A stretch of 64,000 nt of DNA from Paenibacillus sp. Soil787 (GTDB lineage: Bacteria; Bacillota; Bacilli; Paenibacillales; NBRC-103111), in assembly GCF_001429545.1 (NCBI RefSeq), contig NZ_LMSP01000001.1, forward strand, positions 663,189-727,188. The letters run 5' to 3'. The position numbers and the translations under genes were made by a program. The notes below the pieces were generated by a model, which worked only from the letters and a program-made list of their open reading frames with translations, had not been told where the DNA came from and did no database searches. Of this stretch, positions 8,115 to 21,116 are shown piece by piece; the first letter of the stretch is position 1; the number at the start of each line of letters is the position of its first letter.

Positions 8115-9446
8115 ATGTCCGTACAATTATCCATGAAACCTTATAAGATTGATGATGCTCCACTCAATAAGTTTCATCTGAAAATTACAGCGCTTACGTT
8201 TGGATCTAATTTTTCCGATGGATATGCTCTTGGTATTATAGGAATGGCTCTAACTTTGATTGGACCTCAAATGAACCTTAGCCCGATTTGGAGTGGATTA
8301 ATAGGAAGTTCAGCGTTGATCGGACTCTTTTTCGGCAGTCTGCTCCTCGGAGGATTATCCGACCGAATAGGCAGACAGAAAATCTTCCTTGCTAATTTCG
8401 TAGTCATTGCTTTAGCATCTTTCTTACAATTTTTTGTACAAGATCCTACGATTCTGTTCATCCTGCGTATATTGATTGGTTTTGCATTGGGTGGCGATTA
8501 CGCGATTGGGTCGACGCTGCTTGCCGAGTTTGCACCTAGAAAGCATCGGGGCTTTTTACTCTCCTTCCTAAATGTTATGTGGACTGTCGGATATGTGGTA
8601 TCAAACCTTGTCGGTTATTATCTGCTAAAGACCGGCCCGGATTCCTGGCGGTGGATGCTCGCAAGTGCGGCTATCCCGGCAGTAATCGTTCTTCTAATGC
8701 GGATCGGAACACCTGAATCCCCAAGATGGCTCATTAGCATGGGGCGTATGGAGGAAGCAAGGGAAATCGTGAAGAAGCATATCGGTCCACTTGCGGAGCT
8801 TGATGAAACGCGTTTGGATCATACCTCCAAAACGTACCGGTTTCAAGACCTTTTCGGAAAACAGCTTTGGAAGCGTACGGCATTTGGCGGTCTCTTCTAT
8901 GTCTGTCAAGTGCTTCCCTATTTCGCAATTTATACGTTCCTACCGGATATTTTAGCTAAAATGGGATTTGAAGAGACGTTCCTTATGGACACGATTTTAA
9001 ATTTATTCCTGCTTGTCGGTTCGATTGCCGGTCTGTGGTTTACCGAGAAATATTCGCGCAGAAGCTTTACGATTAACACGTTTATTATTCTTACAATCTC
9101 CTTGCTTGCGCTTACACTTTTACCTGCTGGTTCACACATCGTGGCTATTACGATCTTTTGTTTATTTACCTTCGTCATGTCAGCCGCTTCCAATCTTACC
9201 TTAGTATATCCAGCCGAGCTCTTTCCAACCGAAATCCGGGGATCTGGTGTCGGTGTCGTGACTGCAATAAGCCGCATCGGTTCGGCAGTTGGAACATTTC
9301 TGTTGCCGGTAACAATTAATTCCATGGGACTAACCCCTTCTATGATTGGTATGACAATAGTTCTGCTGATCGGGACCATTGTTTCCATTGCCTGGGCGCC
9401 GGAGACGAAATCACTTGCCCTGGATGATGACATCCAATATCATTAA
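8115..9446 (+). CDS. MFS transporter of the hut region (sugar-porter-like fold)
   Basis: 443 residues with about 12 hydrophobic segments. The MFS loop motif LSDRIGRQK is between TM2 and TM3, and GTPESPRWLISMGR lies in the central loop, typical of the sugar/organic-acid porter branch. The start ATG has GGGGGG about 8 nt upstream. It is the first gene of the hut region, directly before the ammonia-lyase homologue and behind the shared hut motif, so histidine, urocanate or a related imidazole compound is the likely cargo. That substrate is inferred from context only; it is not an HutM/HutT amino-acid permease by sequence. Confidence 0.85.
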   Translation: MSVQLSMKPYKIDDAPLNKFHLKITALTFGSNFSDGYALGIIGMALTLIGPQMNLSPIWSGLIGSSALIGLFFGSLLLGGLSDRIGRQKIFLANFVVIALASFLQFFVQDPTILFILRILIGFALGGDYAIGSTLLAEFAPRKHRGFLLSFLNVMWTVGYVVSNLVGYYLLKTGPDSWRWMLASAAIPAVIVLLMRIGTPESPRWLISMGRMEEAREIVKKHIGPLAELDETRLDHTSKTYRFQDLFGKQLWKRTAFGGLFYVCQVLPYFAIYTFLPDILAKMGFEETFLMDTILNLFLLVGSIAGLWFTEKYSRRSFTINTFIILTISLLALTLLPAGSHIVAITIFCLFTFVMSAASNLTLVYPAELFPTEIRGSGVGVVTAISRIGSAVGTFLLPVTINSMGLTPSMIGMTIVLLIGTIVSIAWAPETKSLALDDDIQYH

Positions 9447-9454
9447 AAAACTTT

Positions 9455-9484
9455 TACAAGAGATGTCTTCAGACATCTCTTGTA
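9455..9484. promoter_or_regulatory. Perfect hairpin between transporter and ammonia-lyase
   Basis: A 13-bp perfect stem (core AAGAGATGTC) with a TTCA loop. No T run follows on the + strand, so it is not an ordinary forward terminator; it may be an RNA-processing or stability element that separates expression of transporter and lyase. On the minus strand a T-rich tail follows. Confidence 0.5.
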
Positions 9485-9544: not shown

Positions 9545-11104
9545 ATGAAAATTGCTGCTGCTCCCATCCATCCTAAAGACATAAATAAAGTGATTCTTGG
9601 CGATCATCCGATCTCTATTTCCGAATTTGTTGCTGTGGCCCGTTATGGGGCAAGAGTATCTTTTTCACAAAGCTACTGCGATCGCGTCAAGCAATCCAGA
9701 CAGCTTATCGAGAAATTTTTAAACGAAAACCGCATCATTTATGGCGTAACGACTGGCTTCGGGAGCAATGTGACAGAGATCATCTCAACCGAAGATGCCG
9801 AAACCCTGCAGCGCAACATTGTTAGATCTCATGCGGTTTCCGTAGGCGATCCACTGGAGAAAGAAGTTGTCAGAGCTATTCAACTTATGATGCTTATTCA
9901 TTTGGGGCGTGGCTATTCCGGCGTCCGATTAGAACTGCTAGAGCTCATAGCATCGCTCTTAAATCAAGGAGTCACGCCGTTTGCTCCAGGCGATGGATCC
10001 GTCGGGTATCTTGCCCCGGAAGCACATATGGCGTTAGTGCTAATTGGGGAGGGCAAAGCTTGGCACAAGGAGGAACTCCTTCCAGGCAGAGAGGCGCTCG
10101 AGAGAGCAGGGTTAACCCCTGCGACATTAAGCTGTAAAGAAGGGCTGGCGCTGACTAACGGGTCGTCATCTGTCACAGCTATGGCCATATTAACCCTATT
10201 TAATGCCATTCAAGCGGTGAAAACAGCTGATATTGCGGGCGCAATATCATTCGAAGCTTTAAAAGGTACGATTCATGCCTTCGATCCAAGGCTCCATGCT
10301 TTAAAACAACATGAGGAGCAGGCCAAGACGGCACAAAATTTATTGCGAATCCTTAAAGACAGTGAAATTGCCGAAACGTATAAAAACTATCGCGTGCAGG
10401 ATGCTTTAAGTTTAAGATGCATCCCTCAGGTTCATGGAGCTTCTAAAAGAAATTTGAAGGATGCCGCCTACACCATTAATAATGAGCTTAACTCTGTAAG
10501 TGATAATCCTGTTATTGTTCCCGAGGAAGACGACGGGATTGCCTTAATGGGAGGCAATTTTGACGGCACTTATGTCGGCATCCAGGCAGATATCATGTGT
10601 ATAGCCATGGGTAATTTGGGAAAAATAGCGGAGAGACGAATCGATCGATTAGTGAATTTTCACCTGAGCGAGATGCCTAGTTATTTAGTGAGAAATCCGG
10701 GATTAAACAATGGATATATGATTCCTCAATATACAGCTGTTGGGCTGCTCGGGGAAATCAGGATTCTTTCTCATCCAGCCTCCGTAGAAAGTGTTCCCAC
10801 TAGCGCCAATCAAGAAGATGTTGTCAGTTTCGCGTATGCGGCCTCGAAGAAAGCCTATCAGATTTCGAAGAAGCTGTCGTATATTTTGGCGATTGAATTA
10901 ATGACGGCTGTACAAGCACTCGATTTTCATCGTCCGATGAAATCTTCTCCAGTTATTGAGGGGGTCTATAACCTGATACGAATGCAAGTGCCAACGGTGG
11001 AGGAAGACCGCTTTTTCTATCCGGACATCGTGACGATCTATCATCAAATTCATGAGGGCGACATCGTTAAGGTTGTTGAAGACATGATAGGTGAAATAGA
11101 ATAA
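9545..11104 (+). CDS. hutH: Histidine ammonia-lyase family protein lacking the MIO triad
   Basis: 519 residues, normal HutH length; ATG 9545 has AAGGAG 9 nt upstream. Family landmarks are present: YGVTTGFG (Tyr66), SHAVSVGD, GLALTNGSS, RVQDALSLRCIPQVHGA, GGNF, ERRIDRLVN, TSANQED. The segment that is GS(V/L)GASGDLAPL(S/A)H in classical HutH reads GSVGYLAPEAH here: the Ala-Ser-Gly that cyclises to the MIO electrophile is cleanly missing between Gly154 and Tyr155. Other usual active-site residues also differ: Tyr of QDAYSLR is Leu288, His of GGNFH is Asp340, and His of QEDHVS is Val426. It is the only HutH homologue in a region with intact hutG, hutU and hutI, so a role in histidine deamination is likely, but by a non-standard mechanism, or the substrate differs. 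Family membership is certain; function is inferred. Confidence 0.8.
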   Translation: MKIAAAPIHPKDINKVILGDHPISISEFVAVARYGARVSFSQSYCDRVKQSRQLIEKFLNENRIIYGVTTGFGSNVTEIISTEDAETLQRNIVRSHAVSVGDPLEKEVVRAIQLMMLIHLGRGYSGVRLELLELIASLLNQGVTPFAPGDGSVGYLAPEAHMALVLIGEGKAWHKEELLPGREALERAGLTPATLSCKEGLALTNGSSSVTAMAILTLFNAIQAVKTADIAGAISFEALKGTIHAFDPRLHALKQHEEQAKTAQNLLRILKDSEIAETYKNYRVQDALSLRCIPQVHGASKRNLKDAAYTINNELNSVSDNPVIVPEEDDGIALMGGNFDGTYVGIQADIMCIAMGNLGKIAERRIDRLVNFHLSEMPSYLVRNPGLNNGYMIPQYTAVGLLGEIRILSHPASVESVPTSANQEDVVSFAYAASKKAYQISKKLSYILAIELMTAVQALDFHRPMKSSPVIEGVYNLIRMQVPTVEEDRFFYPDIVTIYHQIHEGDIVKVVEDMIGEIE

Positions 11105-11181: not shown

Positions 11182-12375
11182 ATGAAATTGGATACGGCTC
11201 AAGCCTCCTTTTCGCAGCTTCTCATATCCGGGACGTTAATCCATGAAGCGGATTTTGAAGAAATGCGTGAGCGGCTTGGCATCGAACCGCGGCCCCAAGT
11301 CGTTATCGTTTTGTCCATAGACCGTTATACCGATTTGGCTTTGGACAAGTCATTGCAATGGAGTATTGAGATCGGGCAAGTGCTGGTGGAAGCCATTTTT
11401 GAAAGTATCACCTTGCCATTCTTGTGGGTATGGGTGGGAGAAGGCGTGTTAGCCGTATTATTGGAACTCCAATCGATTCAGCCCGTAGAACCGACTTATA
11501 AGCAAATTACGTATGGCATGGTCCGGAAAATTCAAAACTTCGTGGATACGAAGGGCTTTTCCGTTTCAGCCGGAATTGGCACCTATTATGAAGATCCTTA
11601 CAAGCTTCATCTTTCCTACAGCGAAGCCAAAGAATCATTGATCGACCGTTTCTTTCAAGGAAACCGGATGATTTTTCAATATGAAGGACAAAGAAGCATT
11701 CAGGAAGACCGTGCAAAGCCGGTGACCCAAGAAGAGAAAATCGAATTGCTGTCACGTGTCCGGATCGGCGATGAAGAAGGCTCGATTGCTTATTTGGTCG
11801 AGTTATTAGAAAATCTTTCCCAATCGTATAAGCATAATATTGATCTATTTAAGTCGGAAGCTTATGATCTAGTACTTTCTTTGTCAAGAATGGTTGTCGA
11901 CTTAGGAGGTAATGCTTCTGAAATTTTATCTGAAAATGCGCGAATGCTTCAAGATTTGTACAGTACCATTCGCTATGACAAATTTGTTAAAAAGCTGTGC
12001 GCATACTGGAGGAAGTTAGCCAAGCAAGTATCGGACGATCATGCTTTAGAGGTGTCCCCCATTGTACGATCCGCCATTGTTTATATAAGAGAACATCATC
12101 AAGACAAATTGTTATTAAAAGAAATTGCCCAGCATTGTTACTTAAGCACCCATTATTTTGCCCATATATTCAAAAAAGAAGCGGGTTTAAGCTTTGTCGA
12201 CTTTCTAAATAAAGTTCGTATTGAGAAGGCGGTTTATTTGTTAGAGAAAACGGAATTAACCATGCAAGAGATTGCTGCGCGAGTCGGTTTTCAGGATGCG
12301 AACTATTTTGCAAGGAAATTTAAAATGATTATGGGGTGCAGCCCGACGGACTATCGGTCATCGGCCCAGTGCTAG
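11182..12375 (+). CDS. AraC-family regulator with N-terminal GGDEF-like sensor domain, probable hut activator
   Basis: 397 residues. Residues about 30-170 resemble the degenerate GGDEF-like (CdaR/YesN-type) domain (VSAGIGTYYEDPYKLHLSYSEAKESL), with no catalytic GGDEF motif. The C-terminal about 100 residues are a double AraC helix-turn-helix (IREHHQDKLLLKEIAQHCYLS, then YFAHIFKKEAG and EIAARVGFQDANYFARKFK). The start has GGGGAGGTGA upstream. It lies between the two hut transcription units, both of which carry the same upstream motif at a position suited to an AraC-type activator, so it is the best candidate hut regulator, replacing the HutP antiterminator of Bacillus subtilis. The direct ligand is unknown. 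Confidence 0.85.
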   Translation: MKLDTAQASFSQLLISGTLIHEADFEEMRERLGIEPRPQVVIVLSIDRYTDLALDKSLQWSIEIGQVLVEAIFESITLPFLWVWVGEGVLAVLLELQSIQPVEPTYKQITYGMVRKIQNFVDTKGFSVSAGIGTYYEDPYKLHLSYSEAKESLIDRFFQGNRMIFQYEGQRSIQEDRAKPVTQEEKIELLSRVRIGDEEGSIAYLVELLENLSQSYKHNIDLFKSEAYDLVLSLSRMVVDLGGNASEILSENARMLQDLYSTIRYDKFVKKLCAYWRKLAKQVSDDHALEVSPIVRSAIVYIREHHQDKLLLKEIAQHCYLSTHYFAHIFKKEAGLSFVDFLNKVRIEKAVYLLEKTELTMQEIAARVGFQDANYFARKFKMIMGCSPTDYRSSAQC

Positions 12376-12580: not shown

Positions 12581-13549
12581 TTGAGACAAATTGAACTGCT
12601 GAATCCGCCAGAATTCGTACGACAGTCCAATTGGCGGGATCGATTCGAGACCAAGGTATCCCAGTGGTTGACCCCTTGGGAAGGCGAGGAAGAAGTCCAA
12701 GTCGGTTTCATCGGCGTTCCGCTTTCTAAGACGTCAATCAGTATTTCAGGCGCTTCGATGACACCGAATGCCCTGCGCGAATTGTTTGCAAATGTCACGA
12801 CGTACAGTATCGACCACGGTGTCGATTTGCAGGAATTGCAGGCACGTGATCTTGGTGATATTCAAATGCATGTGACGGATCTGCTGCGCTGTCATGCCAA
12901 TATCGAACAAGGACTGAAGAACATTTACGCAGCCATGCCTCATTTGTTCCCGATTATTGCTGGCGGTGATCATTCCATTACTTGCCCCTCAGTGAAAGCG
13001 TTTAAGCACCATGTTGGTGGAAAGGTAGGCATCGTTCAGCTTGACTCCCATATGGATGTCCGAAATCTGGAGGACGGAGGTCCTTCCAATGGAACGCCAA
13101 TCCGCGGGTTGATCGAATCGGGGACGGTCTGCGGCCGCCATATTGCGCAAATCGGACTTCACAGCTTCGCGAATTCAAGAGCATATCATGAATATGCGAT
13201 GGAGCAAGGAATTACTCAATACACGGCGCGTCAGGTAGCCAAAGAAGGAATCGAAGCTTTGGTGGAAAAGGCGCTGGAGGTTGCCGGTGACGGGACGGAT
13301 GCGATTTATGTAACGGTTGACATGGATGTACTTGATCAAGCTTATGCACCTGGTGTGCCAGCGCTCGTTCCAGCCGGAATGACCTCATGGCAGTTGCTGG
13401 AAGCTGTATTCCTATTAGGACAGCATCCTAAGGTCCGAGGCTTTGATATTGTTTGTGTAGATCCTATGCAGGATCCCCGCAGAGCAACGGTCAGGACTAC
13501 CTTGCATGTTATCTTGACTTTCTTGACGGGATATATGAAACGAATTTAA
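12581..13549 (+). CDS. hutG: Formimidoylglutamase (arginase/ureohydrolase family)
   Basis: 322 residues. Hydrolyses N-formimidoyl-L-glutamate to glutamate and formamide, the last hut step. The binuclear manganese ligands are all present: GGDHS, LDSHMD and VDMDVLD. The start is TTG 12581, with AGGAGGG 8 nt upstream; there is no better start. First gene of the run hutG-hutU-hutI-gdh-malic enzyme with gaps of 15-80 nt. In-family alternatives (agmatinase, arginase) are less likely given hutU and hutI next door. Confidence 0.9.
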   Translation: MRQIELLNPPEFVRQSNWRDRFETKVSQWLTPWEGEEEVQVGFIGVPLSKTSISISGASMTPNALRELFANVTTYSIDHGVDLQELQARDLGDIQMHVTDLLRCHANIEQGLKNIYAAMPHLFPIIAGGDHSITCPSVKAFKHHVGGKVGIVQLDSHMDVRNLEDGGPSNGTPIRGLIESGTVCGRHIAQIGLHSFANSRAYHEYAMEQGITQYTARQVAKEGIEALVEKALEVAGDGTDAIYVTVDMDVLDQAYAPGVPALVPAGMTSWQLLEAVFLLGQHPKVRGFDIVCVDPMQDPRRATVRTTLHVILTFLTGYMKRI

Positions 13550-13579: not shown

Positions 13580-15244
13580 ATGGAACAAACTAACAAACGT
13601 ACAATTCGAGCAGCACACGGAACGAAACTTACAGCAAAAGGTTGGCAGCAAGAAGCTGTCCTGCGCATGTTGATGAACAACCTGGACCCTGATGTAGCAG
13701 AACGTCCGGAAGATCTTGTTGTCTACGGCGGAATTGGGAAAGCGGCACGGAACTGGGAATCTTATGACAAGATCGTAGAATGTTTAACGAACCTGGAAGA
13801 GGATGAAACGCTGCTAGTACAATCCGGGAAACCGGTTGGTGTATTCAGAACGCATTCGCATGCGCCGCGTGTTCTCATCTCCAACTCGGTGATTGTTCCG
13901 GCCTATGCCAACTGGGAAACGTTCCATGAACTCGATAAACAGGGACTTATGATGTACGGTCAAATGACGGCTGGCAGCTGGATTTATATCGGAACGCAAG
14001 GCATTTTGCAAGGTACGTATGAGACCTTCGCTGAGGCAGCTAGGCAGCATTCGGGAGGCACTTTAAGAGGTACTCTGACATTAACGGCAGGACTTGGCGG
14101 TATGGGCGGCGCTCAACCTCTCGCTGTAACGATGAACGAAGGCGTAGTCATAGGTGTAGACGTAGATCCGACTCGTATTCAACGCAGAATCGACACTCGT
14201 TATTGCGACGTCATGGTTTACGATCTGGATGAAGCGTTGAAGCTTGCGAACGAAGCGAAAGCTGAGGGGAGAGCGCTCGCTATTGGGCTAGTAGGAAACG
14301 CTGCAGAGGTGTTCGCGGAATTTGTGAAACGAGGAATTGTGCCTGATTTCGTAACCGATCAAACTTCGGCTCACGATCCGCTTAACGGCTATGTGCCGGT
14401 CGGTTATTCATTGGAAGCTGCGGCTGACTTGCGTAAAAACGATCCAACGCAGTATGTGAAGCTGTCCAAAAAGTCGATGGCTGACCATGTTCAGGCGATG
14501 CTTGATCTTCAAAAGCTGGGGTCAACCGTATTTGATTATGGTAACAACATCCGTCAAGTGGCTCTGGATGAAGGGGTTAAGGATGCCTTTAATTTCCCTG
14601 GATTTGTTCCGGCTTATATTCGTCCGCTCTTCTGCGAAGGGAAAGGACCGTTCCGCTGGGCAGCATTGTCCGGTAATCCGGAGGATATCTATAAAACCGA
14701 TGAACTTGCATTGAAACTGTTCCCAGAAAATGCGCATCTGCGTAAATGGATCGAATTGGCTAGAGAAAAAGTCGCATTCCAAGGTTTGCCAGCTCGTATT
14801 TGCTGGTTAGGGTACGGGGAACGGGCCAAGATGGGTCTGGCGATTAACGAAATGGTACGCAATGGAGAATTATCCGCGCCGATCGTTATCGGACGTGATC
14901 ACCTGGATTGCGGTTCCGTGGCTTCGCCAAACCGTGAGACTGAGTCCATGAAGGACGGCAGCGATGTAGTTGGCGACTGGGCTATCTTGAATGCTCTTGT
15001 GAATACAGCATCCGGTGCGAGCTGGGTTTCCGTCCATCATGGCGGCGGAGTAGGCATGGGTTACTCCCTGCACGCAGGTATGGTTGTTGTTGCGGACGGT
15101 TCCAAAGAAGCGGATGAAAGATTAGCTCGTGTCTTGAACACAGACCCTGGAATGGGCGTCATCCGTCACGCAGATGCGGGTTATGACATTGCCATTCAAA
15201 CGGCGAAGGAACGCGGCGTTCGCGTACCGATGATGGGTATCTAA
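13580..15244 (+). CDS. hutU: Urocanate hydratase
   Basis: 554 residues, full length. Converts urocanate to imidazolonepropionate using tightly bound NAD as electrophile. Characteristic segments include [43 protein letters not shown] and [18 protein letters not shown] lies upstream of the ATG. 30 nt after hutG; a palindrome lies between it and hutI. Nothing suggests damage. Confidence 0.97.
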
Positions 15245-17957: not shown

Positions 17958-19241
17958 ATGAACAAGTTACGTGAAGATGCTCTTCACATGCATAAAAAGT
18001 ATACCGGAAAGCTGGAGATTCTCGCCAAGGTTCCGGTAGGCACTGTCCGTGATTTGAGTCTTGCCTACTCCCCGGGAGTTGCAGAGCCTTGTAAAGAGAT
18101 TTTTATTGAAAAAGATAAAGTATACGAATATACGATGAAAGGAAACCTGGTTGCCGTTGTTACCAATGGAACGGCTGTACTCGGTTTGGGAAATATCGGT
18201 CCGCATGCGGCTATGCCGGTGATGGAGGGAAAGGCTTTGCTTTTCAAAGTATTTGCCGGTGTCGATGCGATTCCGATCTGTTTAGATGCGTTGGATAAAG
18301 AGAAAGTGATTGAGACAGTTAAGCAGCTTTCACCTTCATTCGGCGGAATTAATTTAGAAGACATCGCAGCCCCGGATTGTTTTGAAATTGAAGAGAGGTT
18401 GAAAAAGGAATGCGCTATTCCTGTTTTCCATGATGATCAGCATGGTACGGCTATAGTCATTGCGGCTGGATTAATCAACGCTCTCCAATTAGTCGACAAA
18501 ACGATGGATCAAATTCGTGTGGTCATTAATGGGGCAGGGGCAGCCGGCATAGCGGCCATGAAGCTTCTGGGCCATATGGGTGCTAAGGATATCATCGTAT
18601 GCGATACGAAAGGTATTATCTATGAAGAAAGACAAGAAGGCATGAATCCATTCAAGCTGGAAATAGCACGGATGACGAATAAAGATCGTCTAACAGGTAA
18701 GCTAGCCGATGCAGTGAGAGGAGCCGATGTTTTCATTGGTGTTTCCGCGGCGGGGGCGCTTACGAAAGAAATGGTCAGTTCCATGAATCGAGATTCCATC
18801 ATATTTGCCTTAGCGAATCCGGTACCGGAGATTATGCCGGAGGAAGCGAAAGCCGCCGGAGCTGCGATCATTGGCACAGGACGCTCTGATTTTCCCAACC
18901 AAATCAACAATGTATTGGCGTTTCCTGGCATTTTTCGCGGCGTACTAGATGTACGTGCTAGAGAGATTAATGAGGCAATGAAACTAGCCGCTGTGTACGC
19001 CATTGCCGGTTTGGTTCCAGCAGATAAGTTAAATCGGGACTATGTAATTCCTCATCCTTTTGAACCGATGATTGCTCCGAATGTGGCTGCTGCGGTTGCT
19101 CAAGCAGCTATGGATACGGGGTGCGCAAGATTATACATCAATGCGGAAGAGGTTAAGGATAGAACAAAGAAACGGATCCGCAAAAACGATGCGGTAGGTT
19201 CGTATTTTTCTTGGTACGCTGACATGACAAAGGAAGAGTAG
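17958..19241 (+). CDS. Malic enzyme (short bacterial NAD(P)-dependent form)
   Basis: 427 residues. Converts malate to pyruvate and CO2 with reduction of NAD(P). Seen: LSLAYSPGVAEPCKEI, NLEDIAAPDCFEIE, PVFHDDQHGTA, and the Rossmann GAGAAGIA. The length fits the YtsJ/MleA group without the phosphotransacetylase extension. Last gene of the hut-gdh run, 40 nt after gdh and followed by a terminator. It provides the exit from the TCA cycle that growth on histidine or glutamate needs. Cofactor choice is not decided here. Confidence 0.92.
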   Translation: MNKLREDALHMHKKYTGKLEILAKVPVGTVRDLSLAYSPGVAEPCKEIFIEKDKVYEYTMKGNLVAVVTNGTAVLGLGNIGPHAAMPVMEGKALLFKVFAGVDAIPICLDALDKEKVIETVKQLSPSFGGINLEDIAAPDCFEIEERLKKECAIPVFHDDQHGTAIVIAAGLINALQLVDKTMDQIRVVINGAGAAGIAAMKLLGHMGAKDIIVCDTKGIIYEERQEGMNPFKLEIARMTNKDRLTGKLADAVRGADVFIGVSAAGALTKEMVSSMNRDSIIFALANPVPEIMPEEAKAAGAAIIGTGRSDFPNQINNVLAFPGIFRGVLDVRAREINEAMKLAAVYAIAGLVPADKLNRDYVIPHPFEPMIAPNVAAAVAQAAMDTGCARLYINAEEVKDRTKKRIRKNDAVGSYFSWYADMTKEE

Positions 19242-19326: not shown

Positions 19327-19950
19327 ATGTCTTATTCAGTCAAAGTCATTAAGAAGCATATGCAAATAACGACCACTTGGTCGGGGGGAACAACAACACA
19401 GCTAGCCATATATCCTGAACACGCGGAGTATAATAAACGAAATTTTTTATGGAGAATCAGCACGGCCCGCATTCATGATGAGCATTCTTTGTTTACCTGC
19501 CTTCCTGATTTTTGGAGAAAGCTTATGATTATAGAGGGAGAGGTGATTCTCGAATATGAAGGATCACATCAGGTGGGGGTAAAGCCCTACGAGCAGGAGA
19601 GCTTTAGCGGAGGATGGGTCACTCGGAGTATGGGGAAGGTAACAGACTTCAATCTCATCACAGCGGCGGGATGCCGGGGAGAACTAGAAGCTTTATTGAT
19701 CAAAGAAGGAACTTCATATGAGATCGAATGTCACAAGGATGATGTGGAATTTTCACTAGTAACAGAAGCTTTTTATTGTTCGGATGGCCGAATAAACGTT
19801 AGTATTAATGAAGATCAGTCTCTAAGGTTAGAGAAAGGCGACTTCTGCGTATTATCATGGAAAGCATCACTAGATAAGGTGAATATTAGGATAAGCCATT
19901 CTGGTAATGAATCTGCAGCATATGTCATTCGTGCCAGTATTGTGAGTTGA
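19327..19950 (+). CDS. hutD: HutD family cupin protein
   Basis: 207 residues. HutD signature: TTWSGGTTTQLAIYPE, FLWRISTARI, SLFTCLPDFWRKLMIIEGE and FSGGWVT. HutD is a bicupin linked to hut loci that has been proposed to limit or sense pathway flux; its biochemical role is not settled. AAGGAGATG precedes the ATG. It follows the hut run after a terminator, so it may be expressed at a different level. Confidence 0.88.
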   Translation: MSYSVKVIKKHMQITTTWSGGTTTQLAIYPEHAEYNKRNFLWRISTARIHDEHSLFTCLPDFWRKLMIIEGEVILEYEGSHQVGVKPYEQESFSGGWVTRSMGKVTDFNLITAAGCRGELEALLIKEGTSYEIECHKDDVEFSLVTEAFYCSDGRINVSINEDQSLRLEKGDFCVLSWKASLDKVNIRISHSGNESAAYVIRASIVS

Positions 19951-19973: not shown

Positions 19974-21116
19974 ATGATGAACTATGACGTAATCATTGTT
20001 GGTGCCGGTTCGATGGGGATGGCTGCAGGCTATTACTTGTCTCTGGAGGGGAAAAGTGTTTTGCTGCTGGATTCATTTAACCCTCCGCACGATCGCGGGG
20101 CACATCACGGCGATACCCGTATCATCCGGCATGCCTATGGCGAAGGGACGAGCTATGTCCCGCTAGCCCTCAGAGCCCAGCAGCTTTGGTTTGATTTGGA
20201 GCGAGAGTCGGGAAGAAAACTGTTCTGCCAAACCGGGGTGCTGAATGTAGGCACTCGTGATTCAACCTTTCTACAACAAGTTGTTTCTAGCTCCGAAGCC
20301 TATTCACTTCCGCTACAAACTGTGGATTCCAGTAAAATTCATACTGTATGGCCTGGCATTTCGCTTCCAGATGGCTACGTGGGCTGCTTCGAATCGGATT
20401 CAGGCGTGCTTAAAAGCGAGGAATGTATTCGTGCTTATCGGGAACTGTTGGAGCATCATCAAGTTACTATCTTAACGAATACATCCGTACAAGAGTTGTC
20501 TATTGATTCTGCCGGGGTGACGGTCCAAACAGCCAATGAAAGTTATACAGGACGCGCCCTAATCGTTACAGCAGGGGCTTGGTCTTCGAAGCTGCTTCCT
20601 CTTATGAATATCCATCCACCGCTTGTTACCAAAAGAAAAACCTTTGCCTGGTTTGAAGCAGATGACTTTTTATTCGGAGAGGAACAGTTTCCGGCGTTTA
20701 CGTTTGAAACCTCCTTGGGACATTATTACGGTTTTCCCAGCATGGGGGGAGCTGGTCTTAAGGTAGGACGTCATGATGGGGGACTTCGGATTAATCCGGA
20801 TGAAGCAATTCCCGAGTTTGGGGCACTGCAGGAGGATGAAGAAGACTTAAGAATGTTTTTAAGCCGGTTTATGCCTCTTGCCAATACGAAGCTGCGCAAG
20901 GGAAAAACCTGCACTTACACCCTTACTCCCGATGAAAATTTCATCATAGATACACATCCAGAGTATCCGCATATCGCCTTTGCTGCTGGATTTTCCGGCC
21001 ACGGGTTTAAGTTCAGCAGTGTAGTCGGGGAAATCTTATGCCAGCTAATTACAAAAGGCAAAAGTGAGCATGACATTTCTTTATTTTCAATGAACCGTTT
21101 TAAGAACGGGTATTAA
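19974..21116 (+). CDS. FAD-dependent amine oxidase of the sarcosine / N-methyl-tryptophan oxidase family
   Basis: 380 residues. Rossmann VGAGSMGMAAGYYLS at the N-terminus, HGDTRIIRHAYGEG, the covalent-flavin Cys in KTCTYTLTPDENF, and GFSGHGFKFS match monomeric sarcosine oxidase / SolA. It oxidises secondary amino acids or N-methyl amino acids to imines with H2O2. 23 nt after hutD, so probably co-transcribed. A link with histidine breakdown is not established; an N-methylated histidine derivative is a possible substrate, purely by context. Confidence 0.88.
   Translation: MMNYDVIIVGAGSMGMAAGYYLSLEGKSVLLLDSFNPPHDRGAHHGDTRIIRHAYGEGTSYVPLALRAQQLWFDLERESGRKLFCQTGVLNVGTRDSTFLQQVVSSSEAYSLPLQTVDSSKIHTVWPGISLPDGYVGCFESDSGVLKSEECIRAYRELLEHHQVTILTNTSVQELSIDSAGVTVQTANESYTGRALIVTAGAWSSKLLPLMNIHPPLVTKRKTFAWFEADDFLFGEEQFPAFTFETSLGHYYGFPSMGGAGLKVGRHDGGLRINPDEAIPEFGALQEDEEDLRMFLSRFMPLANTKLRKGKTCTYTLTPDENFIIDTHPEYPHIAFAAGFSGHGFKFSSVVGEILCQLITKGKSEHDISLFSMNRFKNGY

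Follow-up and report, generated by a model that had tools for sequence, protein, structure and literature searches.

Gene content of the locus

The window, that is, the whole stretch of 64,000 nucleotides of Paenibacillus sp. DNA that was analysed, carries a hut cluster on its forward strand, in which a lyase of the histidine ammonia-lyase (HAL) fold adjoins a transporter gene and is followed by hutG-like, hutU and hutI genes. The features are:

8115..9446, + strand, MFS transporter adjoining the lyase; nearest solved structures GlcP, then OCTN2 and OCT1 (SLC22)
9545..11104, + strand, MIO-less HAL-fold lyase (group A), predicted hercynine trimethylamine-lyase; CDS, profile match, model and tree
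9986..10027, + strand, codons 148-161 of the lyase, PGDGSVGYLAPEAH, the MIO-loop site with Tyr155 in place of ASGD; alignment
11182..12375, + strand, AraC-type regulator; 81% identity to the AraC beside classical hutH
12581..13549, + strand, hutG-like arginase-family hydrolase; formimidoylglutamase model TIGR01227 226.8 bits, just below the cut-off of 229.15
13580..15244, + strand, hutU, urocanate hydratase; TIGR01228 999.8 bits, sole urocanase found in the genome
15324..16607, + strand, hutI, imidazolonepropionase; sole copy found in the genome
16638..17918, + strand, glutamate dehydrogenase of the ELFV family; its scores do not reach the cut-offs of the specific NCBI models
17958..19241, + strand, malic enzyme family protein
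19327..19950, + strand, HutD-family protein; PF05962
19974..21116, + strand, flavoenzyme of the monomeric sarcosine oxidase / N-methyl-tryptophan oxidase family; 454 bits to 1zov

Among solved structures, the MFS transporter scored 114 bits with GlcP, 94 with OCTN2 and 83 with OCT1, and its likeness to OCTN2 and OCT1 is only a hint of a cation carrier. A perfect 13-bp hairpin with T-rich tails on both strands (9455-9484) lies between the MFS and lyase genes and may terminate or modulate the MFS transcript. The sarcosine oxidase homologue (19974-21116) is the last gene of the cluster. HutU scored 705.2 bits with the thiourocanate hydratase model (cut-off 930) and 734.8 bits with the S-methyl-thiourocanate hydratase model (cut-off 880), and, judged by its profile scores, is an ordinary urocanase. 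No trimethylamine-handling gene was found among the typed genes of the cluster. The Rfam scan returned 0 matches, and the promoter scan found 12, compared with 21.9 in shuffles.

The MIO loop and active site of the window lyase

The lyase CDS (9545-11104, +) begins with ATG, has AAGGAGATG upstream and encodes 519 amino acids. In the alignment with Pseudomonas putida HAL, whose numbering was tied to the Y280F, F329A and D145A mutants among the solved structures, residues 148-161 (PGDGSVGYLAPEAH) lie opposite GSVGASGDLAPLAH. The loop reads GSVG-Y-LAPEAH, with the single Tyr155 in the place of ASGD (HAL 142-145) and no Ala-Ser-Gly triad. An earlier note on this DNA had called the triad exactly missing; its absence stands, while the word exactly is alignment-dependent because four residues (ASGD) face one (Y). 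The three further active-site changes that the note had listed were borne out by the same alignment, in which Leu288, Asp340 and Val426 correspond to HAL Tyr280, His330 and His416. Tyr66, Gln285, Arg291 and Glu424 correspond to HAL Tyr53, Gln277, Arg283 and Glu414 and are retained.

The claim that the fold was kept despite the lost triad is likewise upheld by an AlphaFold2 monomer model, built from a 27-sequence alignment, with a mean pLDDT of 89.9 and with HALs as its best solved neighbours (TM 0.89). The T. denticola ergothionase (6s7j) ranked 16th among the structural neighbours (TM 0.85, 28% identity). Confidence drops in the MIO-loop region and in the stretch that includes Glu424, with lower pLDDT at residues 151-160 (71), 411-420 (58) and 421-430 (70).

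The window lyase scored 565 bits with PF00221 and 546.5 bits with the TIGR01225 hutH equivalog, thus exceeding the cut-off of 539.15, and automatic annotation would therefore name it histidine ammonia-lyase. The curated hutH cut-off is thus passed without the MIO triad, and near relatives carry the name histidine ammonia-lyase in databases.

A pseudogene or sequencing error was ruled out by the open frame and by the ASG-less loop in 119/119 full-length sequences. An MIO-like ring formed from other residues was also rejected: Ser152-Val153-Gly154 belongs to the GSVG that classical HALs have too, beside their ASG, and Tyr155-Leu156 lacks the next Gly that such a ring would take, as judged from the sequence and general knowledge.

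Conservation across the family

In the protein search, 7,999 candidates were scored, and the homologue set consisted of the top 120 out of 7,786 matches; after two short ones had been dropped, 118 homologues and the query made up 119 full-length sequences. Within this set, drawn from the best matches, ASG is absent in 119/119, Tyr155 is present in 115/119, residue 340 is acidic in 119/119 (Asp 116, Glu 3), and Tyr66, Gln285, Arg291 and Glu424 are invariant in 119/119. The search for other homologues that the earlier note had proposed thus found the ASG-less loop shared by all the full-length homologues examined, and on this sequence evidence the loss of the MIO triad is a family trait and not chance or damage.

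In a larger set of 147 distinct group-A sequences, membership of groups A and B was defined by residue 340, which is therefore acidic in 147/147 by definition; the figure free of that selection is the 119/119 of the full-length set. The four retained residues are present in 146-147 of the 147, and column 288 holds Leu in 98/147 and Tyr in 29/147, so Leu288 is no hallmark of group A. Among 85 distinct classical sequences, Tyr280 (85/85), His330 (85/85) and His416 (82/85) were found at the corresponding places.

Named group members among the best 120 include Paenibacillus, Peribacillus, Neobacillus, Priestia and Clostridium, as well as Pseudomonas, Paraburkholderia, Trinickia and Mycolicibacterium, and a Streptomyces genome also has a member among the matches listed in the scan of the genome collection. 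Overall, members of the MIO-less lineage come from Bacilli, Clostridia, Actinobacteria and Proteobacteria, and are mostly annotated as histidine ammonia-lyase.

Co-occurrence with classical HutH and other lyases

The window lyase had been described as the only ammonia-lyase. It is the sole lyase found in the window; however, the assembly holds two PF00221 genes, and the other encodes a classical HutH (GSLGASGDLAPLSH) at C1:477840-479216, 194 kb away. The check for another hutH elsewhere in the genome, which the earlier note had named as a finding that could count against its reading, thus proved positive, and partly does so: the window lyase appears to be a paralogue that serves a different function and not an odd histidine lyase. 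Next in line after classical hutH are genes for HutP (PF09021), an amino-acid permease and an AraC regulator. The AraC regulators at the two lyase loci (window 11182-12375; L003 11565-12758) are 81% identical, and both pathways may therefore be wired by a duplicated regulator. Urocanase and imidazolonepropionase each turned up once in the genome search, in either case within the window cluster, so that urocanate from both lyases would reach the same HutU.

Similarly, an ASG-bearing HutH is encoded in 17/19 other Bacilli genomes that have a group A or B lyase, and a urocanase in 16/16 of the A-bearing genomes tested. Of the remaining two, one is a genome of the window's genus (G190, 210 contigs) that has an A lyase alone, with no other PF00221 match, and the other (G247) has an A lyase, two ergothionase-type lyases, a distant lyase with Ala-Cys-Gly for Ala-Ser-Gly and three partial matches. 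The genome of Peribacillus frigoritolerans combines a classical lyase with A and B lyases. A further genome of the window's genus (G142) encodes HutH, an A lyase and an ergothionase-type lyase (L207), the last being 47% identical to the ergothionase-type L161, compared with 29% to the window lyase. Because HutH and an ergothionase-type lyase occur beside A in such genomes, the A lyase is unlikely to serve histidine or ergothioneine.

Gene neighbourhoods

Neighbourhoods were compared by tblastn of the flanks for 40 group-A lyases (35 loci), 69 classical lyases and the ergothionase type. Lyase types were assigned by best tblastn score; L021, which bears ASG, was corrected out of group B, and L166 was reassigned from classical to ergothionase type by the tree, giving corrected totals of 5 (B), 8 (ergothionase type) and 69 (classical) and leaving the BCCT and XDH counts of the classical group the same.

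A BCCT transporter lies within 10 kb of 11/40 group-A and 5/8 ergothionase-type lyases (5/7 uncorrected), compared with 0/69 classical ones. The BCCT-linked A lyases represent 8 loci, which belong to Clostridia and to two Bacilli genomes and of which none is close to the window. BCCT proteins beside A, B and ergothionase-type lyases passed Pfam PF02028 in 8/8 tested cases, and all of those scored with the NCBI glycine-betaine, choline and carnitine models fell below the cut-offs. In Corynebacterium, BCCT uptake of ergothioneine has been proposed, although some of the deletions had no more than slight effects (PMC12689799).

An MFS transporter of the window type lies within 1 kb of 18/40 A lyases compared with 0/69 classical ones, and hutU and hutI also occur at 16/18 of these A loci. 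Within 10 kb it was found near one classical lyase, L113, where both lyase kinds adjoin. Fisher p values are 6e-6 for BCCT and 7e-10 for MFS, both indicative only because contig ends truncate many of the loci and many are related to one another. In addition, a monomeric sarcosine oxidase homologue is located within 10 kb of 10/40 A and 0/69 classical lyases, a recurrence that suggests the breakdown of N-methylated histidines. hutU lies within 10 kb of 17/40 A lyases compared with 36/69 classical ones, a classical count that includes L166.

An XDH-type molybdenum hydroxylase lies within 10 kb of 0/40 A lyases compared with 6/8 ergothionase-type ones (6/7 uncorrected). It probably corresponds to the thiourocanate desulfhydrase cited in PMC13405746, an identity that is our own reading. 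The partners of the ergothionase pathway, an XDH-type desulfhydrase or a thiourocanate hydratase, were thus not found with the window type, given the XDH count of 0/40 for group A and the HutU scores below cut-offs. Five ergothionase-type lyases (L159, L161, L162, L164 and L165), from Clostridium and Peptoniphilus genomes and a Firmicutes MAG, adjoin a BCCT transporter and have XDH-type genes within 10 kb.

At four Clostridial loci, two different A lyases are adjacent or 1-2 genes apart (L009 6180-9287; L010 1-2949; L013 9980-14932; L019 9977-15284); the paired enzymes may form mixed tetramers or may serve two substrates.

Other MIO-less groups

Groups B and C are also MIO-less, yet keep His330 and His416, and at L122, L123, the Priestia plasmid locus L210 and the Klebsiella plasmid locus L211 (B/C) hut genes occur together with betaine-type carriers or an MFS transporter. 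OpuAC-family carriers can transport histidine too, and those beside group C are therefore weaker evidence than BCCT.

A further MIO-less group, with a loop of the form GSVGYLxATxH (L125-L128), occurs on plasmids of Agrobacterium, Rhizobium and Sodalis next to a betaine-type ABC transporter, in three cases (L125, L127, L128) with CoA-transferase and beta-oxidation genes as well. A lyase with the same loop is located on the Klebsiella plasmid (L211) among hutU, hutC, hutD and a formimidoylglutamate deiminase gene. At L120 (9075-15631) and L121, a Brevibacillus-type B lyase is followed by a divergent second urocanase, which scored 752 bits to hutU compared with 1011 for the normal copy and fell below the cut-offs of both thiourocanate-hydratase models; a gene for an OsmF-like betaine-binding protein lies nearby.

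Further finds (P0167, P0177, P0179, P0184 and P0185) comprise group-B MIO-less homologues of Pseudomonas and two group sequences fused to an ABC ATPase; such proteins may be what hutH1, so far unexplained, encodes in the hut operons of Pseudomonas. L208 (genome G473) is a HAL-fold protein with a shortened loop, GSLGVGDLQPMAH, whose genome encodes a classical HutH and a B lyase as well, and by its sequence is possibly yet another MIO-less type.

Phylogeny and relation to ergothionase

The possibility, raised in the earlier note, that MIO-independent members had been reported is real: the T. denticola ergothionase (6s7j) is a MIO-less member of the HAL fold, and ergothionase has been described as confined to few genera (PMC13405746). 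Eight relatives of it (L159-L166) came from a PF00221 search of 30 genomes, and L161 scored 662 bits with 6s7j. Their loop reads (G/S)S(V/I)GE(G/A)D in 6/8, with Glu at the His330 place in 6/8 and Leu at the Tyr280 place in 7/8. A motif G(V/L)GxNKD follows the catalytic Tyr in 7/8 of these sequences; the window lyase instead has GFGSNVTE, and reads GYL where the ergothionase type has the x(G/A)D loop. It scored 179 bits with 6s7j (28% identity) compared with 363 bits with P. putida HAL.

The tree of 81 rows was built with the MIO-loop and active-site columns removed and with no PAL/TAL outgroup; it comprised 22/41 A, 18/31 B and 28/47 classical sequences of the reduced set, together with 3 C, 8 ergothionase-type and 2 further MIO-bearing rows. 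Groups A (22 rows), B (18) and C (3) each form a single branch, A and B remain single branches in both trees built without column 340, and A+B+C form one branch with a support of 98/100 in the tree without trait columns. The best tree places the 8 ergothionase-type rows on a branch of their own, with MIO-bearing rows in between, and a split with all MIO-bearing rows on the same side was recovered in 0% of 200 bootstrap trees. By the AU test, a tree that unites A+B+C+E in one MIO-less clade is not rejected (p 0.32). Two independent MIO losses, one in A+B+C and one in ergothionase, are thus favoured by the sequences but not proven.

Simple filing of the window lyase as an ergothionase was rejected on its 28% identity, the separate branch in the best tree, the lack of an XDH partner and the presence of both types in G142.

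Predicted reaction and alternatives

The window lyase is very probably a MIO-independent lyase and not a histidine ammonia-lyase, and its substrate is probably a betaine. That it removes trimethylamine from histidine betaine (hercynine, N-alpha-trimethyl-L-histidine) to give urocanate is the specific reaction that we favour by a little. What we infer is that the protein is catalytic, that it acts on a betaine, specifically on hercynine, and that Tyr155 and Asp340 have the functions proposed below. What has been observed in support is the clade-wide loss of the MIO triad with the fold and other catalytic residues kept, the separate HutH, and the linkage to hut genes and, among relatives, to BCCT genes. 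The MIO-less fold, the acidic residue 340, the BCCT carriers of relatives and the HutU and HutI of the window would together most simply mean urocanate from hercynine.

MIO is required in HAL because ammonia is a poor leaving group. In the window lyase, beta-elimination would take place on the HAL fold without MIO: the conserved Tyr66 (HAL Tyr53) would take the beta proton, Arg291 and its neighbours would bind the substrate carboxylate, and the quaternary trimethylammonium would depart without MIO activation because it is incapable of attack on MIO and leaves more readily than ammonia does. The acidic side chain at position 340 (HAL His330; Glu in most of the ergothionase type) and Tyr155, placed in the vacated MIO space, may hold the cation, and the resulting urocanate would pass to glutamate via the adjacent HutU, HutI and HutG. 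Ergothionase offers a MIO-less precedent, in which trimethylamine is eliminated from a histidine betaine (PMC13405746). The earlier note had offered either MIO-independent chemistry or a different substrate, and the evidence favours both together, namely MIO-less elimination with trimethylamine as the better leaving group. At about even odds, this second HAL-fold lineage would have dispensed with MIO, apparently in a loss separate from that of ergothionase, and turned into betaine lyases, with the window enzyme a hercynine trimethylamine-lyase.

Several observations speak against hercynine. The BCCT linkage is not seen in the close kin of the window lyase, which have MFS instead; the sarcosine oxidase homologue could mean mono- or dimethylated histidines instead; the A lyase as sole PF00221 match in G190 would fit histidine as substrate; and Tyr stands at the 280 place in 29/147 A sequences. 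Also, His330 and His416 persist in groups B and C, which sit in similar clusters, so that not all of the residue changes can be linked to the betaine, and the pattern by itself leaves the substrate undefined. In the literature searched, where most subscription and chemistry journals are missing, no characterised hercynine lyase was found, and searches on a methylhistidine lyase, the two Pseudomonas hutH genes and hypaphorine showed nothing on the enzyme. Seebeck and co-workers have reportedly dealt with ergothioneine and methylhistidine catabolism, which may touch on a hercynine lyase.

The sarcosine oxidase homologue of the operon, linked to 10/40 A and 0/69 classical lyases, would fit N-alpha-methyl- or dimethyl-histidine as substrate, or a ring-methylated or otherwise substituted histidine with a more acidic beta proton, and the three lyase kinds of Peribacillus frigoritolerans may likewise serve several histidine derivatives. 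This is nevertheless unlikely, as a secondary-amine oxidase alone would convert N-alpha-methylhistidine to histidine with no lyase needed, and the relatives' BCCT carriers and the ergothionase-like changes indicate a quaternary amine. It is improbable that the window lyase is a second kind of ergothioneine trimethylamine-lyase giving thiourocanate. Such an enzyme would share the fold and MIO loss of 6s7j, an acidic residue at the same place and betaine transporters near its relatives, and the AU test leaves room for a common clade (p 0.32); on the other side stand the scores (179 bits and 28% identity to 6s7j vs 363 bits to P. putida HAL), the separation of the groups in the best tree and in the 200 bootstraps (0%), the three lyase types within G142, the absence of an XDH-type partner near the 40 A lyases, and a sole urocanase that scores 705 with the thiourocanate-hydratase model against a cut-off of 930.

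Deamination of histidine itself by a MIO-free mechanism would agree with the hutH equivalog score (546.5 vs 539.15), with the position of the lyase beside hutG, hutU and hutI, and with G190, where an A lyase is the sole lyase found; yet we regard it as very improbable, given the classical HutH of 17/19 genomes and the three further active-site changes, and a HAL without its MIO serine has greatly reduced histidine activity. Loss of the cofactor residues would also be expected of a regulatory or degenerate paralogue that is no enzyme, but this is hardly credible for a family that retains Tyr66, Gln285, Arg291 and Glu424 in 146-147 of 147 group-A sequences, is repeatedly linked to transport genes and gives a confident HAL-fold model (mean pLDDT 89.9).

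Significance and comparison with known systems

A MIO-less lyase of the HAL fold is already known in ergothionase; what is new is probably the substrate and perhaps the separate loss of the cofactor. If the hercynine reading is true, proteins such as this one that bear the name histidine ammonia-lyase are no histidine lyases, and calls of histidine degradation in such genomes need care. It would also add a further trimethylamine-forming reaction in soil and gut bacteria, and a new route from histidine betaine to glutamate via the ordinary hut enzymes that is a source of trimethylamine. Further, it would provide a natural test of the need for MIO, with ammonia (MIO) and trimethylamine (no MIO) leaving from the same scaffold, and the exchange of His330 for Asp/Glu would be tied to this contrast of leaving groups.

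Compared with classical HutH (P. putida 1b8f/1gkm), the window lyase has the same fold (TM 0.89) at about 40% identity, and has in common with it Tyr53, Gln277, Arg283 and Glu414 and the hut gene neighbourhood. HAL has Ala-Ser-Gly, whereas the window lyase is without it, so that no MIO is expected, and the residues at Tyr280, His330 and His416 differ.

Ergothionase 6s7j resembles the window lyase in its HAL fold, the lack of ASG, Leu at Tyr280 and an acidic residue at His330, and BCCT transporters adjoin ergothionase relatives and some group-A lyases alike. The two differ in the loop, x(G/A)D in ergothionase and Y in the window lyase, and form separate branches in the best tree. In addition, the ergothionase relatives have XDH within 10 kb in 6/7 and hutU in 0/7, the divergent L166 having hutU, whereas hutU and hutI are present and XDH is absent with the window type. 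For the degradation of hercynine, or histidine betaine, the reaction predicted for the window lyase is that of the betaine to urocanate and trimethylamine.
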